Shown: one piece after another, positions 2,028 through 61,982 of the stretch
How positions within the stretch are numbered: position 1 is the stretch's first letter
How the letters are laid out: every line of letters begins with the position of its first letter
From: Bacilli bacterium
GTDB lineage: Bacteria > Bacillota_I > Bacilli_A > RF39 > UBA660
DNA length: 64,000 nt
Direction of reading: 5' to 3'
Assembly: GCA_017428495.1 (NCBI GenBank)
Contig: JAFRQS010000030.1
Location: forward strand, 62,001-126,000
Notes under the pieces: model-generated
The model's input: only the letters and a program-made list of their open reading frames with translations
Told to the model about the DNA's origin: nothing
Databases searched by the model: none
Position numbers and translations under genes: made by a program

Positions 2028-2101
2028 GCAGGTGTAGTTTAATGGTAGAACTTCAGCCTTCCAAGCTGACCACGTGGGTTCGATTCCCATCACCTGCTCC
2101 A
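2028..2101 (+). tRNA. tRNA-Gly (anticodon UCC)
   Basis: Cloverleaf is complete: acceptor GCAGGTG pairs with CACCTGC, anticodon loop CTTCCAA gives TCC, T-arm TGGGTTCGATTCCCA, discriminator T and an encoded CCA (2099-2101). Followed by TTTG and, after about 40 bases, an intrinsic terminator. The downstream neighbour is a small ORF and a serine recombinase, so the 3' side may be an integration boundary. Confidence 0.95.
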
Positions 2102-2192: not shown

Positions 2193-2468
2193 ATGTTAAA
2201 TATTATTAAAGAAAAACTTGATTTAAGCCCTGATTTAAAGAAAAAGATTGATTGGGCTAAGAATTATACTTCTACTTCTATAAAACTTGAGAAAGGGTAT
2301 TTAATTAGATTAGAGCCAACTAATATTGCTTATGTAGATCCACATAAAGTTAAAATTAATAATTATACATTCTTGTTCTTTAACGGTATAAATACTTTTT
2401 ATATTAATAACTTAAATGAACATCATAATATGTCTGAACTTGAAAAATATTTTATACTTGCTAAATAA
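2193..2468 (+). CDS. small protein upstream of serine recombinase
   Basis: 91 residues beginning MLNIIKEKLD; the ATG at 2193 is preceded by AAAGAAAGG at a good distance, which is better than the in-frame TTG farther upstream. The protein is mixed polar and beta-like with no recognisable motif. It sits directly between the tRNA-Gly terminator and the recombinase promoter. A role with the recombinase (for instance directionality or immunity) is possible but only inferred from position. Confidence 0.65.
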   Translation: MLNIIKEKLDLSPDLKKKIDWAKNYTSTSIKLEKGYLIRLEPTNIAYVDPHKVKINNYTFLFFNGINTFYINNLNEHHNMSELEKYFILAK

Positions 2469-2516: not shown

Positions 2517-4395
<1,879 letters not shown>

Positions 4396-7642: not shown

Positions 7643-7762
7643 TGTTCTTGTAATTGAGTTTTATCTCATTTTATATTTTGAGTAAATGTTTCGTAAACGA
7701 GACACAAATTCGCTCCATTTGAAGACAACTTACAAACTGCAATGATTTGTAAGTTTTTATTT
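7635..7762 (+). ncRNA. RNA-like element D with tRNA-like 3' end
   Basis: Extended -10 TGaTATAAT (7635-7643) sits on the final codons of the HEPN gene. From about 7650 follow a body with hairpin TGTTTC/GAGACA (7687-7692, 7699-7704), the tRNA-like end GCTCCATTTGA (7712-7722) and a terminator (CTTACAAA 7729-7736, TTTGTAAG 7746-7753, then TTTTTATTT). Promoter, body start (TTGTAATTGAG, TTTATCTC) and 3' end match element C at 42452-42569. Predicted transcript about 110 bases; no coding potential seen. Confidence 0.5.
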
Positions 7763-7811
7763 TATATAAAACTAATAATGTTCTCTTATCATAGAAAGGA
7801 GGACATTTTTT

Positions 7812-8009
7812 ATGCTTGAATTTAAAACTTTGGAGGAACTTAAAACTGATGAAGAAATACTGGTTGAAATAAATGATATACAAACTAAAATTAAGAAACT
7901 CAATAAGTATTGTAAAAAAATAATTAAAAGAGCTGAGGGCATACAAAATAATCTTAATATTTTTGATAAAGATATTCAAAAAGAAAAAAACAATTATAGG
8001 TCTATGTGA
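7812..8009 (+). CDS. small coiled-coil protein, unknown
   Basis: 65 residues, starting at the ATG at 7812 behind a strong AGGAGG box. The sequence is Lys/Glu/Ile-rich with heptad-like spacing (EILVEINDIQTKIKKLNKY), so it is probably a short coiled coil. It ends with a TGA stop, which supports the standard code. It lies between the terminator of element D and the convergent DUF2207 gene. Function unknown. Confidence 0.65.
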   Translation: MLEFKTLEELKTDEEILVEINDIQTKIKKLNKYCKKIIKRAEGIQNNLNIFDKDIQKEKNNYRSM

Positions 8010-8036
8010 CTTAAATTGTCTTTTTAATATATTTTT

Positions 8037-10523: not shown

Positions 10524-10536
10524 TGCACCTCCATAA

Positions 10537-11085
10537 TTATAATTCAACTTTTATATTTTCTCTTTCGTTTGCACTTGCCTCAAACATTGATTTTGATTTA
10601 TAACCAAACAATCTAGCAAAAATATTACTCGGGAACATTTCAACCTTGTTATTATAAATTCTAACTACACCATTGTAATATTTTCTTGAATTAGCAATAT
10701 CATCTTCAGCTTTTGACAACTCTTTACTTAAATCTTTAAAGTTTTCATTAGCTTTCAAATCAGGATATGCTTCTGCTAAAGCCATAATTTTACTAATACC
10801 ACTAGATATTTGCTCATTTGTCTTAATTTTTTCATCATCAGACATTTTATCATAAGCACTGTTTCTTAATTCTATAACTTCTTTTAAAGTGTCTTTTTCA
10901 TGTTTAGCATAACCTTTTACAGTTTCTACAATGTTAGGAATTAAATCCCATCTTTTCTTTAGATAAACATCCATAGTAGAAAAGGCTTCTTTCACCTTAT
11001 TATTTAGTTTTACAAAACTATTATATAAAGCAAAAGCATAAATAATAATTAAAATGATAATTGCAATGATAATGTAAATCCACAT
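10537..11085 (-). CDS. lemA: LemA family protein
   Basis: 182 residues with an N-terminal membrane helix (about 2-21) and the LemA coiled-coil domain: FVKLNNKVKEAFSTMDVYLKKRWDLIPN, then a repeated helical body and YNGVVRIYNNKVEMFPSNIFA near the C-terminus. The start at 11085 follows AGGAGGTG. It is the first gene of a two-gene operon with the DUF2207 protein, 13 bases apart. LemA proteins are membrane-anchored helical bundles of unclear function. Confidence 0.92.
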   Translation of the reverse strand: MWIYIIIAIIILIIIYAFALYNSFVKLNNKVKEAFSTMDVYLKKRWDLIPNIVETVKGYAKHEKDTLKEVIELRNSAYDKMSDDEKIKTNEQISSGISKIMALAEAYPDLKANENFKDLSKELSKAEDDIANSRKYYNGVVRIYNNKVEMFPSNIFARLFGYKSKSMFEASANERENIKVEL

Positions 11086-11151
11086 AATTTCACCTCCTAT
11101 TGTAATTTAATTTTATCATATTTAATATACTATGTGAAAATTTTTTTTATC

Positions 11152-11266
11152 TGCTATAACTTATTTAGTTGATTTAATCGAACAACTTTGGGAGTATAAT
11201 TTTTCGAATATAAGTAAAGTTATCGCTTCATTTGAAATAAACGCTTGATATTCGACGTTTTTTATT
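11152..11266 (+). ncRNA. RNA-like element A (diverged copy)
   Basis: Extended -10 TGcTATAAC (11152-11160), a body with the stem AACTTT/AAAGTT around an inner TATA/TATA pair, the tRNA-like end TCGCTTCATTTGAAATAA (from 11223) and TGATATTCGACG followed by six T. The end is one base different from the CTCCATTTGA of elements B, C and D. It lies upstream of and divergent from lemA, in the otherwise empty gap 11086-11318. Confidence 0.35.
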
Positions 11267-33757: not shown

Positions 33758-34615
33758 ATGAAAGGAATTATTTTTGCAGGTGGAAATGGTACTAGACTAC
33801 ATCCAACAACAAAGGCATATTCGAAGCAGTTAATAAATGTGTATGACAAACCAGCAATCTATTACCCTATTGCCACTTTAATGCAAGCAGGTATAAAAGA
33901 TATATTAATAATATCAACAAAAGAAAACTATAAATTATATAAAAAATTACTTTCTAATGGAGCGCAATTAGGTATAAAAATTAAATACAAAATACAAAAT
34001 AAACCAAATGGATGTGCAGCAGGTTTAAAGCTATGCAAATCATTTGTAAAAAATTCTACATTTTGTGTCTTGATGGGAGATAATCTTATATATGGAACTG
34101 AACTTGTATCCGAAATAAAAAATACAAATGATAATTTTATAGGAGCAAAAATTTTTGGTTATAAAGTTAAAAATCCTAATGAATTTGGCGTTATAAATAT
34201 AAAAGATAATAAAATAATAAATATAGAAGAAAAACCTAAAAATCCTAAAAGTGATATAGCAATTATTGGAGCATATATTTATGATAAAAATGTATTTAAT
34301 TATATTAATAATATATCAATTTCTAGTAGAAATGAATTAGAAATCCCTGATATTAACAAAATCTATTTAAAAAATGATACTTTAAAATATAAAATTATTT
34401 CTAAAGATAAATGGATTGACATTGGAACTCCTGAAAAACTTTTGATGGCTTCAATTTTTATACATGATATTCAAAAAGAAAAAAATAAATTAGTTGCATG
34501 TTTAGAAGAAATAGCATATGATAATAAATACATTTCTTTTGAACAATTAAAAAAATTATCAGCAAATAAGAGTGAATATGAAAAATATATTTCATCAATT
34601 AAGGAGGATAAATGA
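33758..34615 (+). CDS. rfbA: glucose-1-phosphate thymidylyltransferase
   Basis: 285 residues. Nucleotidyltransferase signature GIIFAGGNGTRLHPTTKAYSKQL at the N-terminus, LMGDNLIYG metal site (about 109-117) and EEKPKNPKS. It joins dTTP and glucose 1-phosphate to dTDP-glucose. Followed by a 4-base overlap (ATGA) with the dehydratase gene, as usual for the dTDP-sugar pathway. TATAAT at 33730-33735 and an AGGAGG box precede it. The C-terminus resembles RmlA. Confidence 0.93.
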   Translation: MKGIIFAGGNGTRLHPTTKAYSKQLINVYDKPAIYYPIATLMQAGIKDILIISTKENYKLYKKLLSNGAQLGIKIKYKIQNKPNGCAAGLKLCKSFVKNSTFCVLMGDNLIYGTELVSEIKNTNDNFIGAKIFGYKVKNPNEFGVINIKDNKIINIEEKPKNPKSDIAIIGAYIYDKNVFNYINNISISSRNELEIPDINKIYLKNDTLKYKIISKDKWIDIGTPEKLLMASIFIHDIQKEKNKLVACLEEIAYDNKYISFEQLKKLSANKSEYEKYISSIKEDK

Positions 34616-35571
34616 AATTATTAGTAACAGGTGGCGCTGGTTTTATAGGTACTAATTTTCTAATATATATGTCAAATAAATATTTAAATTATAAATTCAT
34701 ATGCTTAGATAATTTATCTGTAAAAGAAAGTAATAATAATTTAGAATATTTAAAAAAGTATAAAAATATTCAATTTATAAAAGGAGATATTACAAATGAA
34801 GAATTTATAAATGATTTATTTAAGAAAGAAAAATTTGATGCCGTAATAAATTTTGCTGCAGAAGTCGCTGTAGACTATTCTATTGAAAATCCAAATATAT
34901 TTTTAAAAACCAACGTCTTGGGAACAGCAATTTTAATGAATGCTTGTTTAAAATATAAGGTAGATAGATATCATCAAATATCAACTGATGAAGTATATGG
35001 TGATCTACCTATTAATTCAAAGAAAAAGTATGATGAAACATCAGTTTTAAGGCCTTCAAATCCTTATGCTGCCAGTAAGGCTGCTGCGGATATACTAGCA
35101 CTTTCTTATTATAGAACTTATGGTTTAAAAGTAACAATTTCTAGATCCACTAATAATTATGGGCCACATCAATCATTTAGAGGATTAATTCCACTAACAA
35201 TTAAGAATTGCACTTACAATAAAAGTATTCCAATATTTGGTACAGGAAATAATATTAGAGATTGGATATATGTTTTAGATCATGCAAGAGCAATAGATTT
35301 AATATTGCATAATGGTAAAATAGGTCAAATTTATAACATATCTGGTAACTCAAAAAGAACCAATTTATATGTAGTTAAAAAAATAATAAAAATAATGAAT
35401 AAAGATAATAATTTAATTACTTATGTAAAAGATAGACCTGGTCATGATTTAATGTATTCAATTAATTCTAAAAAAATAGAAAATGAACTAAGCTGGAATA
35501 GAATATATACATTTGATAAAAGTATAATATATACAATAAAATGGTATGAAAAAAATCTCATATTAAAATGA
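34612..35571 (+). CDS. rfbB: dTDP-glucose 4,6-dehydratase
   Basis: 319 residues, extended short-chain dehydrogenase: VTGGAGFIGTNFL NAD-binding site, STDEVYGDL catalytic Thr/Asp/Glu region, YAASKAAAD with the Tyr-x3-Lys pair, RSTNNYGPHQ. It makes dTDP-4-keto-6-deoxyglucose from the rfbA product. RmlC and RmlD for rhamnose are not encoded next to it, so the final sugar is unknown. Its stop is in a terminator shared with the convergent TasA-like gene. Confidence 0.94.
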   Translation: MKLLVTGGAGFIGTNFLIYMSNKYLNYKFICLDNLSVKESNNNLEYLKKYKNIQFIKGDITNEEFINDLFKKEKFDAVINFAAEVAVDYSIENPNIFLKTNVLGTAILMNACLKYKVDRYHQISTDEVYGDLPINSKKKYDETSVLRPSNPYAASKAAADILALSYYRTYGLKVTISRSTNNYGPHQSFRGLIPLTIKNCTYNKSIPIFGTGNNIRDWIYVLDHARAIDLILHNGKIGQIYNISGNSKRTNLYVVKKIIKIMNKDNNLITYVKDRPGHDLMYSINSKKIENELSWNRIYTFDKSIIYTIKWYEKNLILK

Positions 35572-35580
35572 GATTTTTTT
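35553..35580. terminator. bidirectional terminator between rfbB and the TasA-like operon
   Basis: AAATCTCA / TGAGATTT with 8-base loop and T-runs on both strands. Confidence 0.85.
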
Positions 35581-37096
35581 AATTTTTAACAACATCTAAG
35601 TTAATAACATTAAATGTATAATTATATGAAGTGCCAGAATTGTTTTCCCAATGACCCAATTCTACTGTTATACCACTTGATTGTAATCCAGTAATTGTAT
35701 ACTTGTAATTATTATATAACTGTCCTATAACATTATTTGATGTATCATAAACTTTGACATCAATTTGATTATTAATACTAGTTAATACAATTTTAACTGT
35801 AGGTGTTTCGGAAGAAGTAAATCCCACATAATATTTATTACTTTCATTTGCACCATTATTAGGATATATTAATGAATGTGGATTAGTTAGGCTACCACCA
35901 CTATATGCTTGAATTCTAAATCCATTTACTTTTACTGCTGAACTACCCTTTATAGTTCCAGTAAGAGTAGTGTAATACCTATTAGAATAGTGATTAAATA
36001 ATACAACTCCTTCTACAGTGCTACCTACTCTTTGTGATAATACTAATATTGGATTTAAAGTTTTTGTTGAGTATGGGAGCTTAGCTTCTAATGTTACTGT
36101 AAAATCATTGCCATCAAATGCCAACACACCAGTATTTATAGGAGTGCTAGTAGAAACCCCGTTAGTACCTGTATTTGTATATTTAAATCTAGTTATATTA
36201 CCACTATAATCTTTTGTTACCTGTGGTTGTCCTGAAATTCCTTCATATAATGTAGTACCTATAGGTACATCTGCTGGGTTATATGTAGTTGTAGTTGTAT
36301 CCCTAACTGGTGCGTCCCATGTACCACCATTACCTCCACCAACAGCAGTGATAGTTAAATTAGATGTTAACTCTGTTAAAAACGTTACTACTCCATTACT
36401 ATATGTATAATTTGTTCCACTTGTTAATGTATTATTTGATGCATCTGTTATTACTATATTAGCAGGAGCATTTGCTATTGTTACAGTTGGTGTATATGTT
36501 ACATTACTCATATTTGTAAATGACTTACTTCTTATATATTCGCTACTTAAACTATTGCTATTTGTACAATTTACATATGTTATCTCTCTTAATGGTGTAA
36601 AATGAAAGCTTATTGTTCCATCTAGTCCATTATTCGATGTATTAGACGGATTTTGATATGCAAATGTCAAATTAAATGTTATATTATCATCATTATTACC
36701 ATTAGAATTTACTACACTACTATTCTCTGTTATTCCGCTTACACTTGGTACTATATTTGAATTTGAATATATCAATGATTGACTTGGATCATATACTATT
36801 CCATCGAATATTTGTTTTGAATTTCCTAAGTTCTTTATTGATACTGACATTGTCTTACTATCTGATGAATTACTCAATTCTAAACTTGTAGTTAATACTG
36901 TTTTATTATAATTTTCTATATATGTAGTTGGTGTTACATTTATTATTGCTATATCATCTTGTGTAGTCATTGCTACACTTCCACTCACACTTAAATCATA
37001 AGATACACTTGCATATCCTATTCCTAATATCAGTACTACTACTGGTACATATATAGCTATAAATTTTAAAATATTATTTCTATTATATTTTTTCAT
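35579..37096 (-). CDS. TasA/camelysin-like secreted protein, large
   Basis: 505 residues. SipW-type signal segment (membrane helix ending VLILGIGYASVSYDLSVSG, about residues 11-40), then Ser/Asn/Thr-rich beta repeats: an N-terminal domain (about 40-170) resembling the other operon proteins and a larger C-terminal part (about 265-505) of jelly-roll type with many Thr. It is exported and processed, probably by the SipW-type peptidase of this operon, to the cell surface or matrix. RBS AGGATATG. Adhesin or fibre subunit are the likely roles. Confidence 0.75.
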   Translation of the reverse strand: MKKYNRNNILKFIAIYVPVVVLILGIGYASVSYDLSVSGSVAMTTQDDIAIINVTPTTYIENYNKTVLTTSLELSNSSDSKTMSVSIKNLGNSKQIFDGIVYDPSQSLIYSNSNIVPSVSGITENSSVVNSNGNNDDNITFNLTFAYQNPSNTSNNGLDGTISFHFTPLREITYVNCTNSNSLSSEYIRSKSFTNMSNVTYTPTVTIANAPANIVITDASNNTLTSGTNYTYSNGVVTFLTELTSNLTITAVGGGNGGTWDAPVRDTTTTTYNPADVPIGTTLYEGISGQPQVTKDYSGNITRFKYTNTGTNGVSTSTPINTGVLAFDGNDFTVTLEAKLPYSTKTLNPILVLSQRVGSTVEGVVLFNHYSNRYYTTLTGTIKGSSAVKVNGFRIQAYSGGSLTNPHSLIYPNNGANESNKYYVGFTSSETPTVKIVLTSINNQIDVKVYDTSNNVIGQLYNNYKYTITGLQSSGITVELGHWENNSGTSYNYTFNVINLDVVKN

Positions 37097-37104
37097 AACA
37101 TATC

Positions 37105-37656
37105 CTAACTATATACAGCAGAAGCATTTATAGTAACTGTTACAGTTGTGCTTTGCGAAGCAGCTGTATATAGTACTTTATTTACTTTAGCTTTTACAGT
37201 TAGAATAGTATATCCTCCTGCTGCTACTGTCTGACTAGCTGCATTACTCAAATCAGTTGTAATAGTAAAATATTGACTATTAGTATTTGTTGTTGCAGAA
37301 ATATTTAATAAAGCACTCAAATTAGGACTTTCATTTAATATTTTATATCTAACTATTGCAACATCTCCATATCCTTTTAATCCACTTACTGTAAAACTAG
37401 CAACTCGATCACTTGTTACACTAGCACTTATTGTAGCGCAATTAGTAATTGTACCACTATCAGAAAGACATGTACTAGAAGTTGTTATATCTCCAGATGC
37501 ACTACTAAATTTTACTCTCATATCATTATCTACAGTTGCATGTGCTGTACCATTTATAGACAATGAAATATTAGATATAGCAGCATATCCAATAGATATA
37601 CAAAGTATAGAAATTAATAGAAATAACAAAATTTTAAAATTTCTTAATCTCCTCAT
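37105..37656 (-). CDS. TasA/camelysin-like secreted protein, small
   Basis: 183 residues; start at 37656 behind TAGGAGGAT. The N-terminal hydrophobic segment ends in ILCISIGYAAISNISLSINGTAHA, the same GYAA-S-xxINGTAHAT pattern as the 197-residue protein at 40241-40834. Two Cys (CLSDSGTITNCATISA) may form a disulfide. Secreted beta-sandwich, probably a fibre or surface-layer subunit that is cut by the SipW-type signal peptidase. The hairpin 37675-37699 lies just upstream. Confidence 0.8.
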   Translation of the reverse strand: MRRLRNFKILLFLLISILCISIGYAAISNISLSINGTAHATVDNDMRVKFSSASGDITTSSTCLSDSGTITNCATISASVTSDRVASFTVSGLKGYGDVAIVRYKILNESPNLSALLNISATTNTNSQYFTITTDLSNAASQTVAAGGYTILTVKAKVNKVLYTAASQSTTVTVTINASAVYS

Positions 37657-37674
37657 ATATCCTCCTAATAGTGT

Positions 37675-37699
37675 AATAGACACTTTACAAGTGCCTATT
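37675..37699 (-). other. hairpin inside the TasA-like operon
   Basis: AATAG-CACTT (37675-37685) pairs with AAGTG-CTATT (37689-37699) around loop TAC. It lies between the DUF5305 gene and the small TasA-like gene, without a T-run, so processing, stability or attenuation of the downstream secreted-protein genes are possible. Confidence 0.45.
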
Positions 37700-39044
37700 T
37701 AGTTTTTTTCTTTTTTGTAGTAGTTTTCTTTCTTTTTATCTTTGTGTCAGGGAAATAATAGTTATCCTTTATGGCTTTAAACACTGCTGTCTTCTCTAAT
37801 TGATCATATAAACTCTCATCACTATTTTTTGTACCCTTGATTGCATTCTTATCATCAATTATACCAATACTTGTAGTCTTCTCAATATCTTCTTTAATTT
37901 TCTCTTTAGTATATTTTCTAGTTTTTTTCTTTTCTTCTGGTTTAATAATATTCATGTCTTCAATATCATAATCAGGAGCAGTTGTACCATCTTTTTCTGC
38001 CATAATATCTTCTACTCTTAAAGCATACGTATATATTACGCCTTCTCCTACCGGTATTATGAAGAATGTTCCAGTTTTAGCTTCATTTTCCAACATCAAT
38101 AGTGGTTTATCCGATGTATCCTTTATTTCAAGCATATCTCTAAAACTTACAACCTTACAAATTTGAGATGCACCGATTGGATAACTACCATTAATTCTTT
38201 GAATATAAGAATCATATGTAGATGTTATCTTTTTTATTCTCTTTTGATATATTTCCAATATTGTTCTTGTACTCTTATAATACCAAATAACATAAATTAT
38301 CAAAATTAAGAATATCAATAGGCATACTCCAGCACTGAATAAATATAACATACTATTTTCAGCACTCTTAATAAGTACATCTGTATCATTTATACTTTCT
38401 ACTGATTTAATATCTACATCCACCGTTTTTCTAGTCAATGGAATAGATAAACTAACAACAGAATCTTTATTAATATTTTCCATAGAGGTATTACCATCAC
38501 CAGATATATCAACATTTAAATATATCTTTAACGTATTAATTGTTTCCTCTAAATCATAAATTGTCACAAAATCACTCAACAAATCATTATACTTATTATA
38601 ATTAATGTCTAAATCATAACTAATATTTGCATTATTATTAGCACTAATCTCCTCTGATTCATATAATGTCTCCTTCTTTGTAAACAATGCCCTTTTATTA
38701 TCTTTATCTATTACATTGAATAAAGCAACAACTTTATATTGATACTTAAAATCAACATCTTTACCTAAAAAATCAAGCTTATAATCAATATTAGCAGGTA
38801 TATAGTCTATTAATGAAGCTACATACTGATTACCGCTTTCTACACATTTATCTTCATAAAAATCATTTTTCTTTAAACATACTTTATAATCAAGTGAACT
38901 ATTTTCACTTAATTTTACATATGAAGTTTTACTTAGAGAATAAAATTTATACGTAAAGTAAACACATGGTAATAGCACTAAAAATGAAACAACTAACATA
39001 ACAGTAATCAAAATTCTATTTCTATCACTTTTGGTCTCTATCAT
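37695..39044 (-). CDS. DUF5305-type membrane protein
   Basis: 449 residues: N-terminal helix (about 9-30), an outer domain (about 35-215) containing VKLSENSSLDYKVCLKKNDFYEDKCVES and YKLDFLGKD, typical of DUF5305, a second membrane helix (about 232-256), and a cytoplasmic Lys-rich tail. DUF5305 genes are common beside SipW-type signal peptidases and help assemble the exported fibre, though the mechanism is unknown. The Cys pair in the outer domain may form a disulfide. RBS AAAGGAGG. Confidence 0.8.
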   Translation of the reverse strand: MIETKSDRNRILITVMLVVSFLVLLPCVYFTYKFYSLSKTSYVKLSENSSLDYKVCLKKNDFYEDKCVESGNQYVASLIDYIPANIDYKLDFLGKDVDFKYQYKVVALFNVIDKDNKRALFTKKETLYESEEISANNNANISYDLDINYNKYNDLLSDFVTIYDLEETINTLKIYLNVDISGDGNTSMENINKDSVVSLSIPLTRKTVDVDIKSVESINDTDVLIKSAENSMLYLFSAGVCLLIFLILIIYVIWYYKSTRTILEIYQKRIKKITSTYDSYIQRINGSYPIGASQICKVVSFRDMLEIKDTSDKPLLMLENEAKTGTFFIIPVGEGVIYTYALRVEDIMAEKDGTTAPDYDIEDMNIIKPEEKKKTRKYTKEKIKEDIEKTTSIGIIDDKNAIKGTKNSDESLYDQLEKTAVFKAIKDNYYFPDTKIKRKKTTTKKKKTK

Positions 39045-39071
39045 AAATTTATCCTCCTTTCATTATTCTAA

Positions 39072-40187
39072 TTAAAATAATTCATTAATCCAAATGGTTG
39101 GTAAACCCATTTTTTTAATTCTTAATTTTGCGACTCCTCGCAAATCATCATAAGTAATATAACCTATATCCTCCTGAGGATTGTTATCACCTTTTGTATA
39201 TATCTTCTTCACACCGTTTGTTTCTTCAATTCTCACAATCCTATGAATCACAATAATATTATCTTTTTTAAACAATATTACTTGGCCTTCAGTTACATTG
39301 GTATCTTTAGAATCAAATAATAGCGCATCACCTTTTTCCAATGCTCCTAGCATTGAGTTTGACCCAACAACTATCAATCCATATTTAAATTTACAAGAAA
39401 TTAACATTGTAAATGATATTATTAATGCCATAACTAGTACAGTCATAACACCTTTTACTTTTCTATTTTGTATAGCTAGCGCTTTAATACTATCCTCATA
39501 AGTATCAAATAACACTAACAAAATTATTACTGGATATACAATCCTAGCAAATGATTTAAAGTATATATGAACATCTGGTGTAATTGGAATTATATACAAA
39601 TATATTGTAATTATTATCCTATATATAATATTAGACCTACTACCAAAATTTATACTTACATAATTATATAAAAGATTACTAGCTATAGAAGCAAAAAATA
39701 CATATCCCATTGCTTCTAAAAAACCTTGTAAATTATTCAAACTATATATGTTTGCATATATTACTAAGTCTACTAATACACCAAATGCAAACGTCAGTAT
39801 TAAAGAAGTTCTATTATTCGCACTTAAGAATTCTTTTCTAAGTATTTCTGAAGATATTATAATCAATATAATAGGTATTATTTGATGCATTAATACCCAT
39901 ATGCCAAATTGATATGTTGCTCTATAATAACCAACATAATATCCAATCAAATAATAAATAATTAGATAAAATATTGCAAAAACAATCATATAATTTCTAA
40001 CTTCTTTTTCACGCACAGAAATACTTTTAATGCTATTTATACTTTTCTTTGTTATGAATGCATATATTACCAAGAATATTGATATTATAATTTTATTAGT
40101 TAATAATCTATTGGAGAAAAGAGTACCCATAAGAAATAGTACAAGAAATAACTCTAGCACATATATCTTCAATTTGTCTTTCTTCAT
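39072..40187 (-). CDS. SipW-type signal peptidase I with extra membrane domain
   Basis: 371 residues: an N-terminal part with seven or eight membrane helices (to about 250) precedes the peptidase domain. Catalytic Ser in VVGSNSMLGAL (about residue 277) and, about 38 residues on, VIHRI with His in place of the bacterial Lys, the ER/archaeal-type (SipW) dyad; YTKGDNNPQED is the third box. The long membrane domain is absent from B. subtilis SipW. It should process the TasA-like proteins of the same operon. Confidence 0.88.
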   Translation of the reverse strand: MKKDKLKIYVLELFLVLFLMGTLFSNRLLTNKIIISIFLVIYAFITKKSINSIKSISVREKEVRNYMIVFAIFYLIIYYLIGYYVGYYRATYQFGIWVLMHQIIPIILIIISSEILRKEFLSANNRTSLILTFAFGVLVDLVIYANIYSLNNLQGFLEAMGYVFFASIASNLLYNYVSINFGSRSNIIYRIIITIYLYIIPITPDVHIYFKSFARIVYPVIILLVLFDTYEDSIKALAIQNRKVKGVMTVLVMALIISFTMLISCKFKYGLIVVGSNSMLGALEKGDALLFDSKDTNVTEGQVILFKKDNIIVIHRIVRIEETNGVKKIYTKGDNNPQEDIGYITYDDLRGVAKLRIKKMGLPTIWINELF

Positions 40188-40240
40188 ACCCTTTCTCCTT
40201 TAGAATTTATATTTATGTATTGGAGCGATACATATGATTA

Positions 40241-40834
40241 TTAACTATTAGCTACTGGTGTAGCAGTAAATTGAACTATTAAATCTGTAGCTGATATATC
40301 AGCAGTAGATGGAGTAACATTTAATACTGTATGAACAACTATTGTAGTAGTTCCACCATTAGCATTAAGCGTTACACATGCAGGATTGCCAGTAGCACTT
40401 GGCAAACTTGCAGTAGATGTAAATGATGCTGATGATCCACCAGATACTGCAATATCTGATGAACATAATTTAGCCTTAATATCTGGGCTCTTATTAACTA
40501 CAGTAAATGTTACATCTGCATATTCATTCCTAGTTGTAAAACCATATAAGTCAAATTTTGCAGTTCTTTTTGTAGCATCATTAGCAGTATCGATTGATGC
40601 TGCTGTAACATCGCTACCAGAATTATAACTAGCTATATTAGCTGGACTTGAAGTAATTGTATTAGTTGCTGTTGTATCAAATTCAACAATAAAATTATCC
40701 TGGCTTGGTGTAGCATGTGCTGTACCATTAATAGTTAAAGTTATAGCACTTATTGCTGCATAACCAATACCTAAAGCTACTACTGCAATTAAAACATAAA
40801 CTAATAATCCTAAACTTTTCCTTTTTCCTCTCAT
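40241..40834 (-). CDS. TasA/camelysin-like secreted protein
   Basis: 197 residues, start at 40834 behind AAAGGAGTAAA. The N-terminal segment LLVYVLIAVVALGIGYAAISAITLTINGTAHATP is the SipW-type cleavage region also seen at 37105-37656. The mature part is Thr/Ala/Ser-rich with two Cys (KLCSSDIA, GNPACVTL) that may form a disulfide. First gene of the operon, so it is likely the most abundant product: a major fibre or matrix subunit. Family call by pattern; the exact assembly is unknown. Confidence 0.8.
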   Translation of the reverse strand: MRGKRKSLGLLVYVLIAVVALGIGYAAISAITLTINGTAHATPSQDNFIVEFDTTATNTITSSPANIASYNSGSDVTAASIDTANDATKRTAKFDLYGFTTRNEYADVTFTVVNKSPDIKAKLCSSDIAVSGGSSASFTSTASLPSATGNPACVTLNANGGTTTIVVHTVLNVTPSTADISATDLIVQFTATPVANS

Positions 40835-41099: not shown

Positions 41100-41211
41100 A
41101 AAAAACGTCGAATATTCGACGCTTATTTCAAATGGAGCGAGTATCTACCTCATTTGAAAAACAATCACTTACTTTCCATTCAGATAAAACCGATTTAATA
41201 TAATTAAAGCA
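41100..41211 (-). ncRNA. RNA-like element B with tRNA-like 3' end
   Basis: Extended -10 TGcTTTAAT (41203-41211) overlaps the last codons and the stop of the Fic gene. The body has hairpin TGTTTT/GAGGTA (arms at 41158-41163 and 41146-41151) around TCAAAT, then TCGCTCCATTTGAAATAA (GCTCCA at 41133-41138) and a terminator CGTCGAATATTCGACG (41106-41122) with a T-run. Body and 3' end match element C over about 40 bases including the terminator. Confidence 0.5.
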
Positions 41212-42283
41212 TATCTTTTCCAACAAAAACATCATATATTTCAGAATATTTAAATGCTTTTTTTGCATATGTCATATCTGGTTCAATTATTTTTAGTTTA
41301 ACAAGCTGATCAATAATATTAGAAACTACATTTCGAGATACGCCAGATTGTTCTTCAACTTCCTTTTTTGTAAATATTATTTGCTTCATAATTATTGGCA
41401 TTATTCTATAAACAGAATTACCTTTTATTTGTTTGATTTTTTCCATATCTTTTTTATAAATATTCTTTATTAAATTAATTTTTACAATATAATTATTACA
41501 CTGTTCAATTACACATTGCAGAAAAAATTTAATATATCCTAACATATTTCCTTTTCGACTTTCATTTAAGAATTTATGATAACTAGGTTTGTATATTTCA
41601 ATTACTTCTGATAAAAATAATATTGGTTCACTATTACTTAATAATGATAATTGAATTGGAATAAGAGTTCTACCTAATCGACCATTACCATCTCTATAAG
41701 CATGTATAGTTTCAAATTGTGAATGTGAAATAGCTAAATTGACAAAAATTGGATCAATGTAAGAATCATTCATATATTCTAATAAATTAGAAAGATAAAA
41801 AGGAATATCTTCTGGAATTGGGGGGATAAAAATTGCTGTTTCTATTGTGGAACCTTTTCCTCCTATCCAATTTTGGGAAGTTCTTATTTTTCCAGGTTCT
41901 TTTTCACTGCCTCTAACACTATTTAATAGGATTTTATGCATACTATTGATTAGTTTTAAATCTATTTTATGATGGTTGGCAAGATATTTAGTTGCATATT
42001 CAATTGAATCTTTTAAATTTTGTATTTCTTTATTATCATCTGTTTGTGGTAAATACTTTAGATAAAATAATTCATCTTGTGAAATTTGTGTTCCCTCTAT
42101 TTGTGTTGATTTTAAACTTTCACTTAGCAAAACTGAATCTAAGAAATATCTTGAATCAAATTCCAATGTATTAATTAAAGATTTATATTCACCATATTTT
42201 TCATTTGCTTCAGATATTAATTTAAGCATTTCTTTATCAATATTATATTCTATAGGTAGTTTTGATGGTTTAAATGGTTCCAT
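41204..42283 (-). CDS. Fic family protein (AMPylase-type) with C-terminal winged helix
   Basis: 359 residues. Fic_N region with the inhibitory motif S59-TQI-E63-G64 (LKSTQIEGT), the Fic core with HAYRDGNGRLGR (about 192-203, the HxFx(D/E)GNGRxxR motif) and a C-terminal winged-helix region (about 290-350, KKEVEEQSGVSRNVVSNIIDQL). Fic enzymes transfer AMP or similar to target proteins; the intramolecular inhibitory Glu keeps it off. The DNA-binding tail and the perfect inverted repeat before its promoter suggest autoregulation. It is flanked by elements C and B in one orientation. Confidence 0.92.
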   Translation of the reverse strand: MEPFKPSKLPIEYNIDKEMLKLISEANEKYGEYKSLINTLEFDSRYFLDSVLLSESLKSTQIEGTQISQDELFYLKYLPQTDDNKEIQNLKDSIEYATKYLANHHKIDLKLINSMHKILLNSVRGSEKEPGKIRTSQNWIGGKGSTIETAIFIPPIPEDIPFYLSNLLEYMNDSYIDPIFVNLAISHSQFETIHAYRDGNGRLGRTLIPIQLSLLSNSEPILFLSEVIEIYKPSYHKFLNESRKGNMLGYIKFFLQCVIEQCNNYIVKINLIKNIYKKDMEKIKQIKGNSVYRIMPIIMKQIIFTKKEVEEQSGVSRNVVSNIIDQLVKLKIIEPDMTYAKKAFKYSEIYDVFVGKDML

Positions 42284-42304
42284 ATAATCGCCTCTTTCTT
42301 CTTC

Positions 42305-42375
42305 ATTATATTATATAAGCTTGGTTTAGTCAACGTAAAATGCACTAAATTTTATAAAAACAGTGCATTTTACGT
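42305..42375 (-). promoter_or_regulatory. Fic promoter with perfect inverted-repeat operator
   Basis: TTGACT (plus 42328-42333), 17-base spacer, TATAAT (plus 42305-42310). Directly upstream, and overlapping the -35 edge, is ACGTAAAATGCACT (42333-42346) / AGTGCATTTTACGT (42362-42375), perfect 14-bp arms with a 15-base centre. Confidence 0.75.
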
Positions 42376-42451
42376 CAAAAAATGATGTGTTTTGTCAATT
42401 AAAGATATAAATTTTAAATTAATATATAAATAATGCCCTTTTTTAGAAAAT

Positions 42452-42569
42452 AAAAAAACGTCGAATATCCGACGCTTATTTCAAATGGAGCAAGTGTGTA
42501 TCTCGTTTGAGAGACATCAGCTGACAAATGTAATAAGAGATAAATCTTAATTACATACTTATTATAGCA
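42452..42569 (-). ncRNA. RNA-like element C with tRNA-like 3' end
   Basis: Extended -10 TGcTATAAT (42561-42569), start near 42555, body with TGTAATTAAGATTTATCTC, hairpin TGTCTC/GAGATA (arms at 42511-42516 and 42499-42504), end CACTTGCTCCATTTGAAATAA (GCTCCA at 42486-42491) and terminator CGTCGGATATTCGACG plus a T-run (42452-42475). The body matches element D; the end CACTTGCTCCATTTGA is identical over 16 bases to tRNA-Gly(GCC). No coding sequence seen. Confidence 0.55.
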
Positions 42570-42596
42570 TATTTTATTAAAAATAGTTTCTCATTA

Positions 42597-42624
42597 TTGT
42601 AATAATTTAAAAAAAGTGTATAAT
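42597..42624 (+). promoter_or_regulatory. promoter of the gene at 42649
   Basis: TTGTAA (42597-42602), 16-base spacer, TATAAT (42619-42624), back to back with the element C promoter (42561-42569). Confidence 0.65.
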
Positions 42625-42648
42625 AATAAGTCACTGGGAGGAAAAACT

Positions 42649-43347
42649 ATGGAAGAGTTAGAATTATTATGTGGCGATTCAATAGATACTGTGGTAAAAA
42701 GATTATTAAAAGCTAAAGTTGAAGGTAAACATGTTTTTTGTGATTTTAACGGAGTAAAATTATATTCTGATAGTGTTACATTAGACTCAGCATATACTGA
42801 AATATTTGGTTGTACAAAAGCAGAATGGAATGAAAGATTAAAAAAAGATATAGCAGAAAGCGAAAAAAGAATGGAAGAAGATAGAAAATGTGCAATAGAA
42901 AACATTCCAAATGTAATTGAAAGAGGAAAACCATTAATCTATCCATTTAGACATGAGGAATGGGCTAAGCTAGTAGAAGCTGATGCAAATGGTGATTACT
43001 GTGGACTAATTACTACATATGCCATAGAAATAATGACTGCTATTGAAGAAGAAAAAACTGTTGAAGAATTAGTAGAAATGTTTAAAGAACAAGGTCATTC
43101 TGGTTGGTCTGCTAGTCTTACTAGAATTGTTATTATGACATATTCAAGAAATGGATATCCATTTTATAAAGCGACTAGATATGGTGAATGGACTGAAGAA
43201 GAATGTGAAGCAATTCTAAAAATATTACAAGATAATGAAGAACATAGCAAAGATTTACGTATTGCTAATAGTGTAGCAGAATCAAAAAAAGATGTTACTA
43301 CAAAACAAAAAAGATTAGTAAGAAATCAAAACAAAGGACAACTATAA
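42649..43347 (+). CDS. unknown protein between tRNA-Gly and element C
   Basis: 232 residues, start at ATG 42649 behind GGGAGGAAAA. Mostly acidic helical protein with Trp- and Cys-containing stretches (DFNGVKLYSDS, EQGHSGWSASLTRI). No family recognised, no membrane helix. It is the only gene between tRNA-Gly(GCC) and element C, on the opposite strand, and is thus inside the tail-bounded segment. Followed by its own terminator. The similarly acidic accessory proteins at 58.9-61 kb are not obviously related. Confidence 0.75.
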   Translation: MEELELLCGDSIDTVVKRLLKAKVEGKHVFCDFNGVKLYSDSVTLDSAYTEIFGCTKAEWNERLKKDIAESEKRMEEDRKCAIENIPNVIERGKPLIYPFRHEEWAKLVEADANGDYCGLITTYAIEIMTAIEEEKTVEELVEMFKEQGHSGWSASLTRIVIMTYSRNGYPFYKATRYGEWTEEECEAILKILQDNEEHSKDLRIANSVAESKKDVTTKQKRLVRNQNKGQL

Positions 43348-43366
43348 TTTGTAGTTGTTCTTTTTA
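43338..43366 (+). terminator. terminator of the gene at 42649
   Basis: ACAACTA / TAGTTGT hairpin, then TCTTTTTATTT. Confidence 0.8.
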
Positions 43367-43370
43367 TTTA

Positions 43371-43396
43371 TAAAAAAACTAGTCAAATGACTAGTT
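43371..43396 (-). terminator. terminator of tRNA-Gly(GCC)
   Basis: AACTAGTCA / TGACTAGTT hairpin with a T-run on the minus strand. It lies 11 bases after the tRNA 3' end, which is the same spacing as in elements B and C. Confidence 0.85.
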
Positions 43397-43406
43397 AATT
43401 ATCAAA

Positions 43407-43481
43407 TGGAGCAAGTGATGGGAATCGAACCCACGTCTCAGCCTTGGCAAGGCCGCGTACTAGCCGTTGTACTACACCTGC
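43407..43481 (-). tRNA. tRNA-Gly (anticodon GCC)
   Basis: Acceptor GCAGGTG / CACTTGC, anticodon loop TTGCCAA, T-arm TGGGTTCGATTCCCA, discriminator T and encoded CCA. Its 3' end and TTTGA that follow are repeated in element C. Confidence 0.95.
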
Positions 43482-58862: not shown

Positions 58863-58940
58863 GCTCTAACTATAAAAGTTAGAGCAAATATTCCATTGGC
58901 ACAATAATCATAGGGGTTTAAAACTGATTTCAACTCAGTT
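58858..58940 (-). repeat. tail-like element E1 with terminator
   Basis: On the minus strand: CAGTTTTAAACCCCTATGATTATTGTGCCA (58897-58924 region), short spacer GAATATT, then hairpin GCTCTAAC / GTTAGAGC (58863-58870, 58878-58885) and T-run. It begins inside the 3' end of the zinc-ribbon gene. Core shared with E3 and E4. Confidence 0.6.
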
Positions 58941-59379
58941 CCATAGAGTAATCTTTTGGATTCATACTGTTTAAATCAACTTTGTGCATTACAAGCATAT
59001 CTTGGGATATTTTTTTAAACATGTTTTCATCAAAATTATTTTTCAATAACATTATCTTTTCTTGTTGAATTCCTATATAAAAGATTTTTTGGGGGCTTAA
59101 TACTTTTTTTGGTACAATAACTTTTAATAAAGAACTATAAGTATTATTATTATCAAGAAATAAGTAACCAAATTCTATTATTAGATTTTTGAAATCATTT
59201 TTAGTTATTTTATTTATGTTTATTAAATACGCTAGTACATTATCACCTATTTTTTCTTTTGCTTGTTGATCAGTTATTACGTTTTTAAAAGGCGTGCTTA
59301 AATTAGCACTATATCCACACTTATCACATACATCACCATTTAATATTGAACCACAATTTCTGCATACAGAATTATTCAT
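58930..59379 (-). CDS. zinc-ribbon accessory protein
   Basis: 149 residues. N-terminal zinc ribbon CRNCGSILNGDVCDKCG (two C-x2-C pairs, about 6-22), then a mostly helical domain without known motif. The stop is TGA, again the standard code. GAGGTG precedes the ATG at 59379. It is one of three accessory genes on the same strand, each separated by tail-like repeats. Zinc ribbons of this kind often bind protein or nucleic acid; function unknown. Confidence 0.75.
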   Translation of the reverse strand: MNNSVCRNCGSILNGDVCDKCGYSANLSTPFKNVITDQQAKEKIGDNVLAYLININKITKNDFKNLIIEFGYLFLDNNNTYSSLLKVIVPKKVLSPQKIFYIGIQQEKIMLLKNNFDENMFKKISQDMLVMHKVDLNSMNPKDYSMELS

Positions 59380-59410
59380 ATAATTCACCTCATATAAACA
59401 TTATAACATA

Positions 59411-59509
59411 AAAAAAAGTAGCATAGCTACTTTAATATTCTTTATGGCACGAGTCGTTACCGGTTGTGAAACTACTTCATGCAAATTAACTGCTACAAAA
59501 AGTATATCA
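59411..59509 (-). ncRNA. RNA-like element E2, tail TGGCAC type
   Basis: Extended -10 TGaTATACT (59501-59509), transcript start near 59495, body TTGTAGCAGTTAATTTGC..., end CTCGTGCCATAAAG (GCCA at 59445-59448), terminator AAAGTAGC-ATA-GCTACTTT (59415-59433). The promoter and first bases match element D (ATATGATATAAT, TTGTA) and its tail matches E1, E3 and E4. The body length is about 85 bases. No coding potential. Confidence 0.45.
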
Positions 59510-59539
59510 TATATTAGTATTTTATTAAACATTCTATTT

Positions 59540-60385
59540 TTAATTTTTAACTCTAGTCTTTGCTGGCTTTTTTTCTAATAAATCTGTCCAATGTCCACTA
59601 GGCATAAATTCTGATGTATCTTTATTATTATCTTGTGCCTTCAAAAAGGCATCCCATTGCTCTTTTGTAAGTACATTTTTGAAATGATTATCATAAAATC
59701 TAAACCAAGCCCAATATGATGGTGTTGGTGTAATGTGTTTACCTTTTTCTGGCTTTGGTAACTCTACACCAAATTTTGTTGTCTGATATACCAAATATTC
59801 TAGGGCATATTGTTCTTCTGGTAGATCTATTTCAGGCATTCTTCCATCGGCCATATCATGATTGCATTGCCAAATATATCCACCTAAATAATCAATTGCA
59901 AAATATAGTTCTACTTCACCTAAATTATTAATTCTTCCTGGGTCTTTGATAATTCCCGGATATATACCATATGTTGGCTCATTTATTTTTAAATTAAGTA
60001 CATCATAATCAACAAAACCTTTACCATTAATTAATTCAGTAAGTCTTTCTTTACGATTTTTTATATCCCATTCAATAGTTGGCTCAGCGGTTTCTGTTTT
60101 TTCTCCTTTTTTTAATCTGTCATAACTACAAATCGGTTCATAATTATTCATCGCTTTTGTTAGCACGGGAATCAATTCATCTAACACTTCTTTATAATCT
60201 AAAGTTGTTGAAGCTAATAAGCAATCAGCATACTTAAAGTATGATATTTTTATTGGTTTTGAATCAAGTGTTCCTTCAATGGTATACATTGCATTTTTTG
60301 GACGAGAAATATTTATTCTTTCCTTATATTTTTTTTGTAAAATTGTTTTTACTTCATTGATATCATAAATTCTAGCTGTTGACAT
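59540..60385 (-). CDS. unknown accessory protein with Trp-rich C-terminal half
   Basis: 281 residues, soluble. RIYDINEVKTILQKKYKERIN at the N-terminus, a middle with TYGIYPGIIKDPGR and a Trp-rich end (SYWAWFRFYDNHFKN). AGGGAGG before the ATG. Not recognised. It is the middle gene of the tail-bounded set; a promoter-like box for E2 lies about 40 bases after its stop. Confidence 0.72.
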   Translation of the reverse strand: MSTARIYDINEVKTILQKKYKERINISRPKNAMYTIEGTLDSKPIKISYFKYADCLLASTTLDYKEVLDELIPVLTKAMNNYEPICSYDRLKKGEKTETAEPTIEWDIKNRKERLTELINGKGFVDYDVLNLKINEPTYGIYPGIIKDPGRINNLGEVELYFAIDYLGGYIWQCNHDMADGRMPEIDLPEEQYALEYLVYQTTKFGVELPKPEKGKHITPTPSYWAWFRFYDNHFKNVLTKEQWDAFLKAQDNNKDTSEFMPSGHWTDLLEKKPAKTRVKN

Positions 60386-60443
60386 TTTTTAAACCTCCCT
60401 TATTGATTTAATATTATAGCATATTTTTCTCTATTTCAATATA

Positions 60444-60513
60444 AAAAAATCGAACTACTATAATAGTTCGACTAATATTCTAAATGGCACGATAATCATA
60501 GGGGTTTGAAACT
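60444..60513 (-). repeat. tail-like element E3 with tRNA-Trp-like flank
   Basis: Minus strand: GTTTCAAACCCCTATGATTATCGTGCCA, then TTTAGAATATTAGTCGAAC and hairpin TCGAACTA / TAGTTCGA (60450-60457, 60464-60471) with T-run. Over about 36 bases the flank and GCCA are nearly the same as the 3' flank and end of tRNA-Trp (61878-61912), apart from a 3-base insertion and a few substitutions. Confidence 0.7.
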
Positions 60514-60534
60514 TTTATTTCTATACGTAAACTC

Positions 60535-60993
60535 TTAGTGTTTACTCATCCATCTTACTTTCATTTGTTGAGTTTTCATTTCTATATTTTCTTGGCATGC
60601 CAATTGTTTTTCATTTAAAATATTCATAACATGTTTTTTAATCATTTCACGATGCTTCTTTTTGGCTCTTTTAATGGTTTGAGAATATCTTTGTGCATCC
60701 TCAATTGTCATGGCTTTTAAAAGATTTAAGGCATCTTGTTTTGAAATTGATTTGCTTGACCAAGCGCCCAAACGATATATTCTATTAAAACCATACCATG
60801 CAAGTTCATCACTAAAAGAATCCTCATCACAGCTTAGAATAATTGGTATTCCTGTTACTAAATCTTTCCCCTTTTTGTAATAACAACAATCATGAGTATC
60901 ATAATATTTATGAATTTCAGCAATAATCTGATTATTGTCATCACCAACTAAATAACATTTTGCATATTCTTTTGCGTTTTCTTCTTTTCCCAT
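60535..60993 (-). CDS. unknown accessory protein, Cys/Trp-rich
   Basis: 152 residues. HKYYDTHDCCYYKKGKDLVTG near the N-terminus, ELAWYGFNRIYRLGAWSSK in the middle, a Lys-rich helical tail (IKRAKKKHREMIKKHVM). No membrane helix. RBS AAAGGAG before the ATG. First of the three minus-strand accessory genes after tRNA-Trp. Not recognised; a cytoplasmic protein that may bind nucleic acid, by its basic tail, is a guess. Confidence 0.7.
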   Translation of the reverse strand: MGKEENAKEYAKCYLVGDDNNQIIAEIHKYYDTHDCCYYKKGKDLVTGIPIILSCDEDSFSDELAWYGFNRIYRLGAWSSKSISKQDALNLLKAMTIEDAQRYSQTIKRAKKKHREMIKKHVMNILNEKQLACQENIEMKTQQMKVRWMSKH

Positions 60994-61050
60994 AACTATT
61001 TCTCCTTTGTTGACTTTATATTATATCATAATATTTTTTTTTTACAATTA

Positions 61051-61115
61051 AAAAACTCTAACTAAAAAGTTAGAGCAAATATTCTACTGGCACGATAATA
61101 ATAGAGGTTTAAAAC
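61051..61115 (-). repeat. tail-like element E4
   Basis: Minus strand: GTTTTAAACCTCTATTATTATCGTGCCA (core 61088-61115), GTAGAATATTT, then CTCTAACT / AGTTAGAG hairpin (61056-61075) and T-run. No gene precedes it on this strand, so it is an orphan copy between the HAD gene and the Cys/Trp-rich gene. Confidence 0.6.
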
Positions 61116-61160
61116 TTTTTATATAATACATAAGAACACATAACAAAACAACGATATATG

Positions 61161-61169
61161 TGATATAAT
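61161..61169 (+). promoter_or_regulatory. extended -10 promoter of the HAD gene
   Basis: TGaTATAAT at 61161-61169, 21 bases before the chosen TTG start. Confidence 0.6.
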
Positions 61170-61189
61170 GCGTACAGGAAGTGATTGAT

Positions 61190-61843
61190 TTGATAAAATA
61201 TATTATATTAGATGTTGATAGAACACTTGTAGATAGTTATAAACCTGAATTATTAAGCTTTCAAGAAGCAATGAAAAACGTTATTGGATATAATATGACA
61301 GAAAGTCAATCAAGAGATTTTACTACAATGCCAACAAAAGCATTTTTAAAATCATTAAATATATCTGAAGAAAATTCAAACAAAATTATGAAAGAATGGG
61401 AATCCACATTTTCTAAATATAAGGTAAAATGTTTTGATGGTATTAAGGATGTAATAAGAACATTGCATGAAAATGGGCATATTATAGGATTAATAACATC
61501 AAGAACACTTGATGAATATCATGAACTTGATGATGAATTAGGTGATATTAGTGAACTATTTAAAATAATAGTAACATCAGATAAAATAATTAAACCTAAA
61601 CCCGATAAACAAAGTATGGAATATTTATGTAATGAGCTAAATTGTTCTGGATCAGAAGTGGTGTATATAGGTGATAGTTATGTAGATAAAGAATTTGCAT
61701 TAAATAGTAATTGCGCATTCATACCTGCATGCTATGATAATAGAGAATTAATTAATGAAGAAAACGCATGCTTTAATCCAAAAGATATACCTAGTATTAT
61801 TGATACATTAACACAGAAAAATCAAACTGGTAAAACAAGATAA
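61190..61843 (+). CDS. HAD-family hydrolase (phosphoglycolate phosphatase-like)
   Basis: 217 residues from the TTG at 61190; AGGAAGTG precedes it at a better distance than for the GTG at 61181. Motif I LDVDRTLVD (DxDxT), cap domain, motif II GLITSRT, motif III K of TSDKIIKPKPDK, motif IV VYIGDSYVDKE. A Cof/Gph-like small phosphatase of unknown substrate. It lies between tRNA-Trp and element E4, on the opposite strand. Confidence 0.88.
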   Translation: MIKYIILDVDRTLVDSYKPELLSFQEAMKNVIGYNMTESQSRDFTTMPTKAFLKSLNISEENSNKIMKEWESTFSKYKVKCFDGIKDVIRTLHENGHIIGLITSRTLDEYHELDDELGDISELFKIIVTSDKIIKPKPDKQSMEYLCNELNCSGSEVVYIGDSYVDKEFALNSNCAFIPACYDNRELINEENACFNPKDIPSIIDTLTQKNQTGKTR

Positions 61844-61908
61844 ACGGATTTAACCATTTTTTTTATATAAGAAAAGCCGAACTATAATAGTTCGACTAAA
61901 ATTCATAA

Positions 61909-61982
61909 TGGCAGGGGATGAGAGAATCGAACTCCCAACAGTGGTTTTGGAGACCATTATTATACCATTTAACTAATCCCCT
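61909..61982 (-). tRNA. tRNA-Trp (anticodon CCA)
   Basis: Acceptor AGGGGAT / ATCCCCT, anticodon loop CTCCAAA giving CCA, T-arm GGGAGTTCGATTCTCTC, discriminator G and encoded CCA. Its 3' flank (TAGTCGAACTATTATAGTTCG terminator-like hairpin) is copied in E3. Confidence 0.94.

Follow-up and report, generated by a model that had tools for sequence, protein, structure and literature searches.

Single-gene units behind tRNA-Gly(GCC) as probable cassettes of large serine recombinases that target tRNA genes

Results

The two genes beside tRNA-Gly(GCC) in the window (the whole stretch of 64,000 nucleotides analyzed here) are very probably one-gene cassettes, which were inserted serially behind the CCA of the tRNA gene and are bounded by hybrid attachment sites, the elements B and C, of a large serine recombinase (LSR) that presumably acts in trans. 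At the level of sequence, both units are identified as integrase-free and serially inserted, and B and C as hybrids composed of a P-arm, the CCA, and a P'-arm of an LSR family that targets tRNA genes.

Gene arrangement downstream of tRNA-Gly(GCC)

The intact target gene tRNA-Gly(GCC) (43407..43481, minus strand; ARAGORN and Rfam, 63.7 bits) ends in CCA at 43409..43407 (minus strand) and is followed by a P'-type arm (43370..43406, minus strand; fold z −2.9), whose hairpin ACTAGTCATTTGACTAGT with a T-run is probably the terminator of the tRNA gene. Further downstream come the 42649 gene, which is encoded on the other strand, then element C, and after it the Fic gene and element B. Cassette 1 (42489..43409, minus strand, 921 bp) extends from the CCA of tRNA-Gly(GCC) to C and carries as cargo the 42649 gene (42649..43347, plus strand), which encodes 232 amino acids and is functionally unassigned. 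Cassette 2, the Fic cassette (41136..42488, minus strand, 1353 bp), harbors the gene of a 359-amino-acid protein with Fic_N and Fic domains (41204..42283, minus strand). The coordinates confirmed the original prediction that the Fic gene lies between C and B and the other gene between C and the tRNA gene. Element C (42452..42522, minus strand) comprises a P-arm (42489–42522), the CCA (42488–42486), and a P' arm with terminator (42485–42452), with a position matrix (PWM) score of 44.8; the corresponding parts of element B (41100..41169, minus strand; PWM 48.4) are located at 41136–41169, 41135–41133, and 41132–41100, and its fold z is −4.8. Rfam detected tRNAs and no other RNA family in the window.

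The predicted identity of C with the 3' end of tRNA-Gly(GCC) and its flank was found as described: the 16 bases TCAAATGGAGCAAGTG are present at 42481–42496 and 43402–43417, in the same orientation and 921 bp apart. At 41128–41143, B contains 14 of these 16 bases, and with up to two mismatches the sequence occurs five times in the window (0.15 expected). The stretch common to B and C, which had been predicted to include the terminator, spans 69 nt at 86% identity, hairpin included, and the palindrome of this hairpin is found at these two places only in the window (expected 0.00). Similar arrangements exist elsewhere in the window, as had also been proposed. A serine integrase element at tRNA-Gly(TCC) (2028–2101) closes at such a site (7715), and the array behind tRNA-Trp (61909–61982) displays the same organization more clearly.

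Attachment sites

C and B were assigned to the LSR because of the similarity of their arms. Compared with the right ends of clade-1 LSR elements, the P-arm of C matched at 23 of 28 positions (shuffle mean 11.6, 0/400) and that of B at 20 of 28 (shuffle mean 12.1, 0/400); over C, B, D, and the tRNA-Trp sites, 19–28 of 28 positions matched LSR-element arms (shuffle means 11–13). Elements whose LSRs are 85–86% identical to the LSR of the window end in TTGTTTCTCAAACGAGATACACAATTGCTCCA, and element C reads ATGTCTCTCAAACGAGATACACACTTGCTCCA. B does not have to mark the original edge on the chromosome, since its outer flank resembles a P' arm. The terminator behind B had been considered as the original flank of the tRNA gene, and the genome G002 as the empty site; this was dropped, since the flanks of B, C, and G002 are all P'-arm-like.

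Fold analysis revealed a hairpin followed by a T-run in the P' arms. A regular expression for the P' arm was too noisy and was replaced by a position matrix derived from the initial sites, aligned at the CCA. Excluding tRNA genes, the matrix detected 27 distinct sites with a score of at least 15 in the initial loci, the maximum in reversed sequence being 14.2. The matrix trained on these earlier loci recovered sites in the 80 new loci described below, and gave no match at this threshold when the 1.13 Mb of this independent set were reversed. Two P-arm patterns had no match in IMG/VR.

The large serine recombinase family

The autonomous element of the window is located at tRNA-Gly(TCC) (2028..2101, plus strand), which is followed on the same strand by a partner ORF of 91 amino acids (2193..2468) and the LSR gene (2532..4376; 614 amino acids; Resolvase and Recombinase in Pfam, PHROG integrase with E 1e-110). 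Its right end is element A (7681..7752, plus strand; PWM 41.3), consisting of P-arm, CCA (7715), and P' arm. Site D (11194..11262, plus strand) has a P-arm identical at 28 of 28 positions to that of a second LSR clade and a CCA decayed to TCA. The presence of PF00239 and PF07508 on a 614-amino-acid protein (450–700 expected) places the enzyme among the LSRs, and R13 and S15 of its YIRVST motif are invariant in 11 relatives. The attachment sites also agree with this class, with a short core (−2/−1 plus CCA) and distinct P and P' arms at both ends. The best NCBIfam match was CcrB with 150 bits (cut-off 900), and the closest phage integrases among the matches listed are about 30% identical or less.

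The independent set comprised 80 loci encoding relatives of the LSR (38–86% identical) in GTDB genomes, namely Bacilli and Clostridia MAGs. In 46 of the 64 loci with enough upstream sequence, a tRNA gene was found less than 1.5 kb upstream of the LSR gene on the same strand, and in 8 further loci another P-CCA-P' site took its place. The family members are encoded 0.4–0.8 kb downstream of tRNA genes, including those for Gly, Leu, Thr, His, Asn, Tyr, Gln, and Cys, and usually behind an ORF of about 90 codons, which is conserved in most loci (33-sequence alignment). The 91-amino-acid partner ORF of the window had no match in Pfam, NCBIfam, PHROG, or PDB; its fold was predicted confidently (pLDDT 87.6) and matched no solved or viral fold. 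It is a candidate recombination directionality factor. Relaxases were identified on some LSR elements of the family (Mob_Pre in locus L341, MobV-like in L174), and none was recognized on the window's own element.

Arms, core, and T-loop

The identity of right-end P-arms rises with the identity of the LSRs (Mantel r 0.80, 0/5000 permutations, 32 loci), and two 95% identical LSRs located at tRNA-Gly(GCC) and tRNA-Asn share an identical P-arm. The arms track the integrase and not the tRNA. Within the bacterial family, the arm of the D type (site at 11228) was found with up to two mismatches in 23 of 386 genomes, corresponding to 21 of 150 genera, and a control pattern gave no match in the same 386 genomes.

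When attL and attR of 31 tRNA-adjacent elements were compared, the base at −1 was common in 94% (43% expected) and that at −2 in 94% (82% expected); the CCA was common too, and two loci (L290 and L344) had no match at −1. The common core therefore consists of the last two bases before the CCA (discriminator included) and the CCA itself, approximately 5 nt. Since a clear excess of common bases is seen only at −1, copying of a tail does not in itself account for the longer match between C and the tRNA end. The comparison led us to reject a strict tail-copy reading of the 16 bases, which consist of the 5-nt core and, for the most part, of arm similarity. Of the predicted two insertions beside the tRNA gene, each bounded by a tail copy, the insertions stand, each closed by an attachment site, and the tail copies are replaced by this short core with similar arms.

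The T-loop motif GTTCRA starts 21 nt before the CCA in 114 of 115 tRNAs containing it. In P-arms, the best match to it lies 24–26 nt before the CCA (17 of 29 non-redundant arms, 0/1000 shuffles), and in P' arms the reversed motif is positioned 19–20 nt after the CCA (25 of 36, 0/1000 shuffles). In a published LSR, the motif of the zinc domain is displaced outward by 5 bp in attP relative to attB (PMC3783163). The positions are only suggestive of the T-loop being part of attB, because the shift observed here is 3–5 nt (mode 4) and the published one is 5.

The Fic cassette in other genera

The Fic protein matched SoFic in PADLOC (E 4e-86) and reached 95.7 bits against the NCBIfam SoFic equivalog (cut-off 550); it is a candidate SoFic-like anti-phage defense protein. 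Its cassette recurs in another genus (G148), where a copy 87% identical to that of the window across 1384 bp belongs to an array that follows tRNA-Gly(TCC) and not GCC. The similarity between G148 and the window is bounded essentially by the CCA of C on one side and that of B on the other; beyond these points, the flanking sequences are different. In G148, the ends are a P' arm (CCATTTGTAAAAATCGTCG) and a P-arm (TCTCAAACGAGATACATAATTGCTCCA) of clade 1, the clade of the window LSR. The unit measures 1353 and 1366 bp in the two genera and about 1352 bp in G009, where it was pieced together from two overlapping contigs and the order is tRNA-Ala, gene, site, Fic gene (70–77% protein identity), site. 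A Fic relative in G014 (73%) is likewise followed by another site. Since the length was kept and the similarity is confined to the unit, the Fic gene moved as a one-gene unit after this unit had formed; the sequence comparison shows that the cassette was transferred between genera with its edges at the sites.

The relatives searched were mostly MAGs, with one genome per species, and no empty site from the species of the window was found among them. G002 and G003, which belong to the same genus as the window, contain neither the 42649 gene nor a close Fic homolog; at the corresponding tRNA, G002 has another gene and not a bare terminator, and G003 has an LSR-type P' arm and the start of a partner ORF. 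Retention of B and C in distant relatives without similarity to the tRNA was not seen in the relatives examined, and no plasmid record contained the Fic cassette.

Integrase-free cassettes and the tRNA-Trp array

The 36 inter-site intervals containing an LSR gene were 2.8–13.8 kb in size. Fifteen intervals lacked it, of which 11 covered 0.39–1.35 kb, nearly all of these with one main ORF. A sample chosen solely by the presence of the D-type arm yielded eight more short intervals (0.66–1.37 kb), and integrase-free cassettes were found in other genera, too. The cargo includes Fic, a HAD hydrolase, a RelA/SpoT-domain protein, and an HTH protein.

In the window, tRNA-Trp(CCA) (61909..61982, minus strand) heads an array of four cassettes (58899..61911, minus strand) with sites at 61090, 60487, 59447, and 58899. 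The cassettes measure 821, 603, 1040, and 548 bp and contain one gene each (61271–61843, plus strand; 60535–60993, 59540–60385, and 58930–59379, minus strand). Like those at tRNA-Gly(GCC), they have flanking attachment sites and no recombinase or mobilization genes, as is characteristic of a CIME. Two P-arm types occur in the array, of which type b (59447) is similar to the end of a G011 element that carries an LSR gene and is likewise located at tRNA-Trp.

Among 60 relatives searched, the 42649 gene had one weak relative (about 33%) in G030, right behind tRNA-Ser and likewise in opposite orientation. An assignment of the 42649 protein as Tad3 was discarded, the similarity being below the curated cut-off. 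None of the loci examined included a parent element that contained either of the two genes, Fic or 42649.

According to a hand count from contig coordinates, a contig end lies less than 300 bp downstream of the tRNA in 14 of 48 tRNA-Gly/Trp loci of relatives and less than 300 bp upstream in 0 of 43 such loci with known length. The downstream breaks are an indirect sign of variability, as would be expected if populations were not uniform at these positions; another possible cause of the assembly breaks is the repetition of arms.

Discussion

In the proposed mechanism, the LSR would bind the tRNA gene as attB, probably via the invariant T-loop GTTCRA at its fixed distance from the CCA end, and recombine it with the P-arm and P'-arm of a circular element, the exchange taking place at the discriminator/CCA core. 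The P' arm would give back the CCA and bring a hairpin with a T-run, presumably acting as terminator, so that the tRNA gene stays functional. A cassette would need only the two arms, and an LSR could therefore be used in trans; we infer such mobilization here, presumably by the clade-1 LSR encoded at 2532–4376. New insertions would go in next to the tRNA gene and push older cassettes outward. In the case of tRNA-Gly(GCC), we infer that the Fic gene was inserted first and the 42649 gene second. On the wider proposal of a serine-integrase counterpart of the integron, our judgment is evenly divided; in it, LSRs would recognize T-loop and CCA, which all tRNA genes have in common, and single-gene cassettes would be loaded, stacked, and shuffled behind many tRNA genes per genome, with their own P' arms providing the terminator of the tRNA gene.

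The units might instead be CIME-like remnants of complete LSR elements that were inserted serially and lost genes by deletion, which would require neither dedicated cassettes nor mobilization in trans. We regard this as rather unlikely. For tRNA genes, accretion and CIMEs are well documented (PMC5704250, PMC7563491), and the interval between A and D, in which a small partner-type ORF is kept and an LSR is lacking, resembles a remnant; however, integrase-free units are mostly short, with a single ORF taking up nearly all of their length, and the Fic unit has retained its size in different genera with similarity restricted to it. That B and C are mere terminators or repeats resembling a tRNA end by chance, with the genes as ordinary neighbors, is highly improbable: the P' arms are indeed hairpins followed by T, but the P-arm side shares conserved sequence with the ends of LSR elements and varies with the LSR clade, the sites recur behind tRNAs in many genera, and the Fic unit was horizontally transferred with exact edges. 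Classical tyrosine-integrase islands with tail copies have an equally slight chance of being the correct explanation; such integrases usually insert at tRNA 3' ends (PMC5704250, PMC7563491), but the linked recombinase in the 80 related loci is an LSR and the common core of approximately 5 nt includes no long tRNA tail.

Among known systems, CIME accretion by a serine-integrase IME comes closest to the cassettes described here, with serial site-specific insertion at one gene and an att site per junction; Mob_Pre/MobV-type relaxases on some LSR elements of the family are a further likeness to serine-integrase IMEs. Reviews place serine-integrase IMEs in internal gene sites or ascribe low specificity to them, and assign tRNA 3' ends to tyrosine integrases (PMC5704250, PMC7563491). 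In contrast to the reviewed IMEs and CIMEs, a whole LSR family uses tRNA ends here, and integrase-free units carry one gene. Integrons resemble the present arrays in having one-gene cassettes with one site each in one orientation and growth at a fixed end. They differ in that the enzyme linked to the present arrays is an LSR and not a tyrosine recombinase, the sites end in CCA after tRNA genes with no attI/attC, several tRNA platforms exist per genome, and the cargo is found in both orientations. In SCC, the LSRs CcrA/B/C insert at the 3' end of rlmH and restore this gene, forming tandem arrays with some units devoid of a recombinase. The LSR described here falls outside this group, with a CcrB score of 150 bits against the Ccr cut-off of 900, many tRNA targets in place of rlmH, and units of often about 1 kb. 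Tycheposons are small cargo islands at tRNA genes, too, but use tyrosine recombinases. Serine recombinases at tRNA genes have been called rare, the examples phiRSM1 (tRNA-Ser) and mycobacterial AICEs (tRNA-Leu) using one tRNA each (PMC3218068). They share LSR integration into a tRNA gene with the present family, but one-gene cassettes are not described for them in the literature covered. Serine-integrase cassette arrays at tRNA genes were not described in this literature, which consisted of journal papers, few of them from subscription titles.

A serine-integrase family that uses many tRNA genes with a core of about 5 nt is unusual, since such ends are classically sites of tyrosine integrases. 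T-loop recognition, if true, would explain the wide tRNA range. The tRNA ends would serve as integron-style parking places for single genes, and one-gene cassettes moving between genera would give gut bacteria with small genomes an integron-like pool of accessory genes. The cargo resembles defense genes (Fic/SoFic, RelA/SpoT-type, AlbA_2). The LSR family could also be a source of integrases for insertion at the tRNA genes of many hosts.

Further observations

The interval A–D (7715–11228) contains DUF2207 and LemA genes and an ORF of 65 amino acids starting behind a P' arm. This P' arm is located directly behind tRNA-Gly in G006 and G018, and in G018 the arrangement is followed by a second, different LSR subgroup. 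In G028 (locus L083, 3990–4140), an LSR with 86% identity is encoded behind a tRNA-Gly-like sequence without T-arm, which is either an assembly error or a damaged target. In G001 (locus L269, 1700–1763), tRNA-Gly(TCC) is separated by a methyltransferase gene from a sequence that resembles a site but has CTA for CCA, at a contig end. Beyond B, the window contains a SipW/TasA-like operon and sugar-nucleotide genes (33758–40834), which are absent at the corresponding place in G002; a similar SipW/TasA-like operon was found in G011, likewise downstream of a tRNA-Gly.
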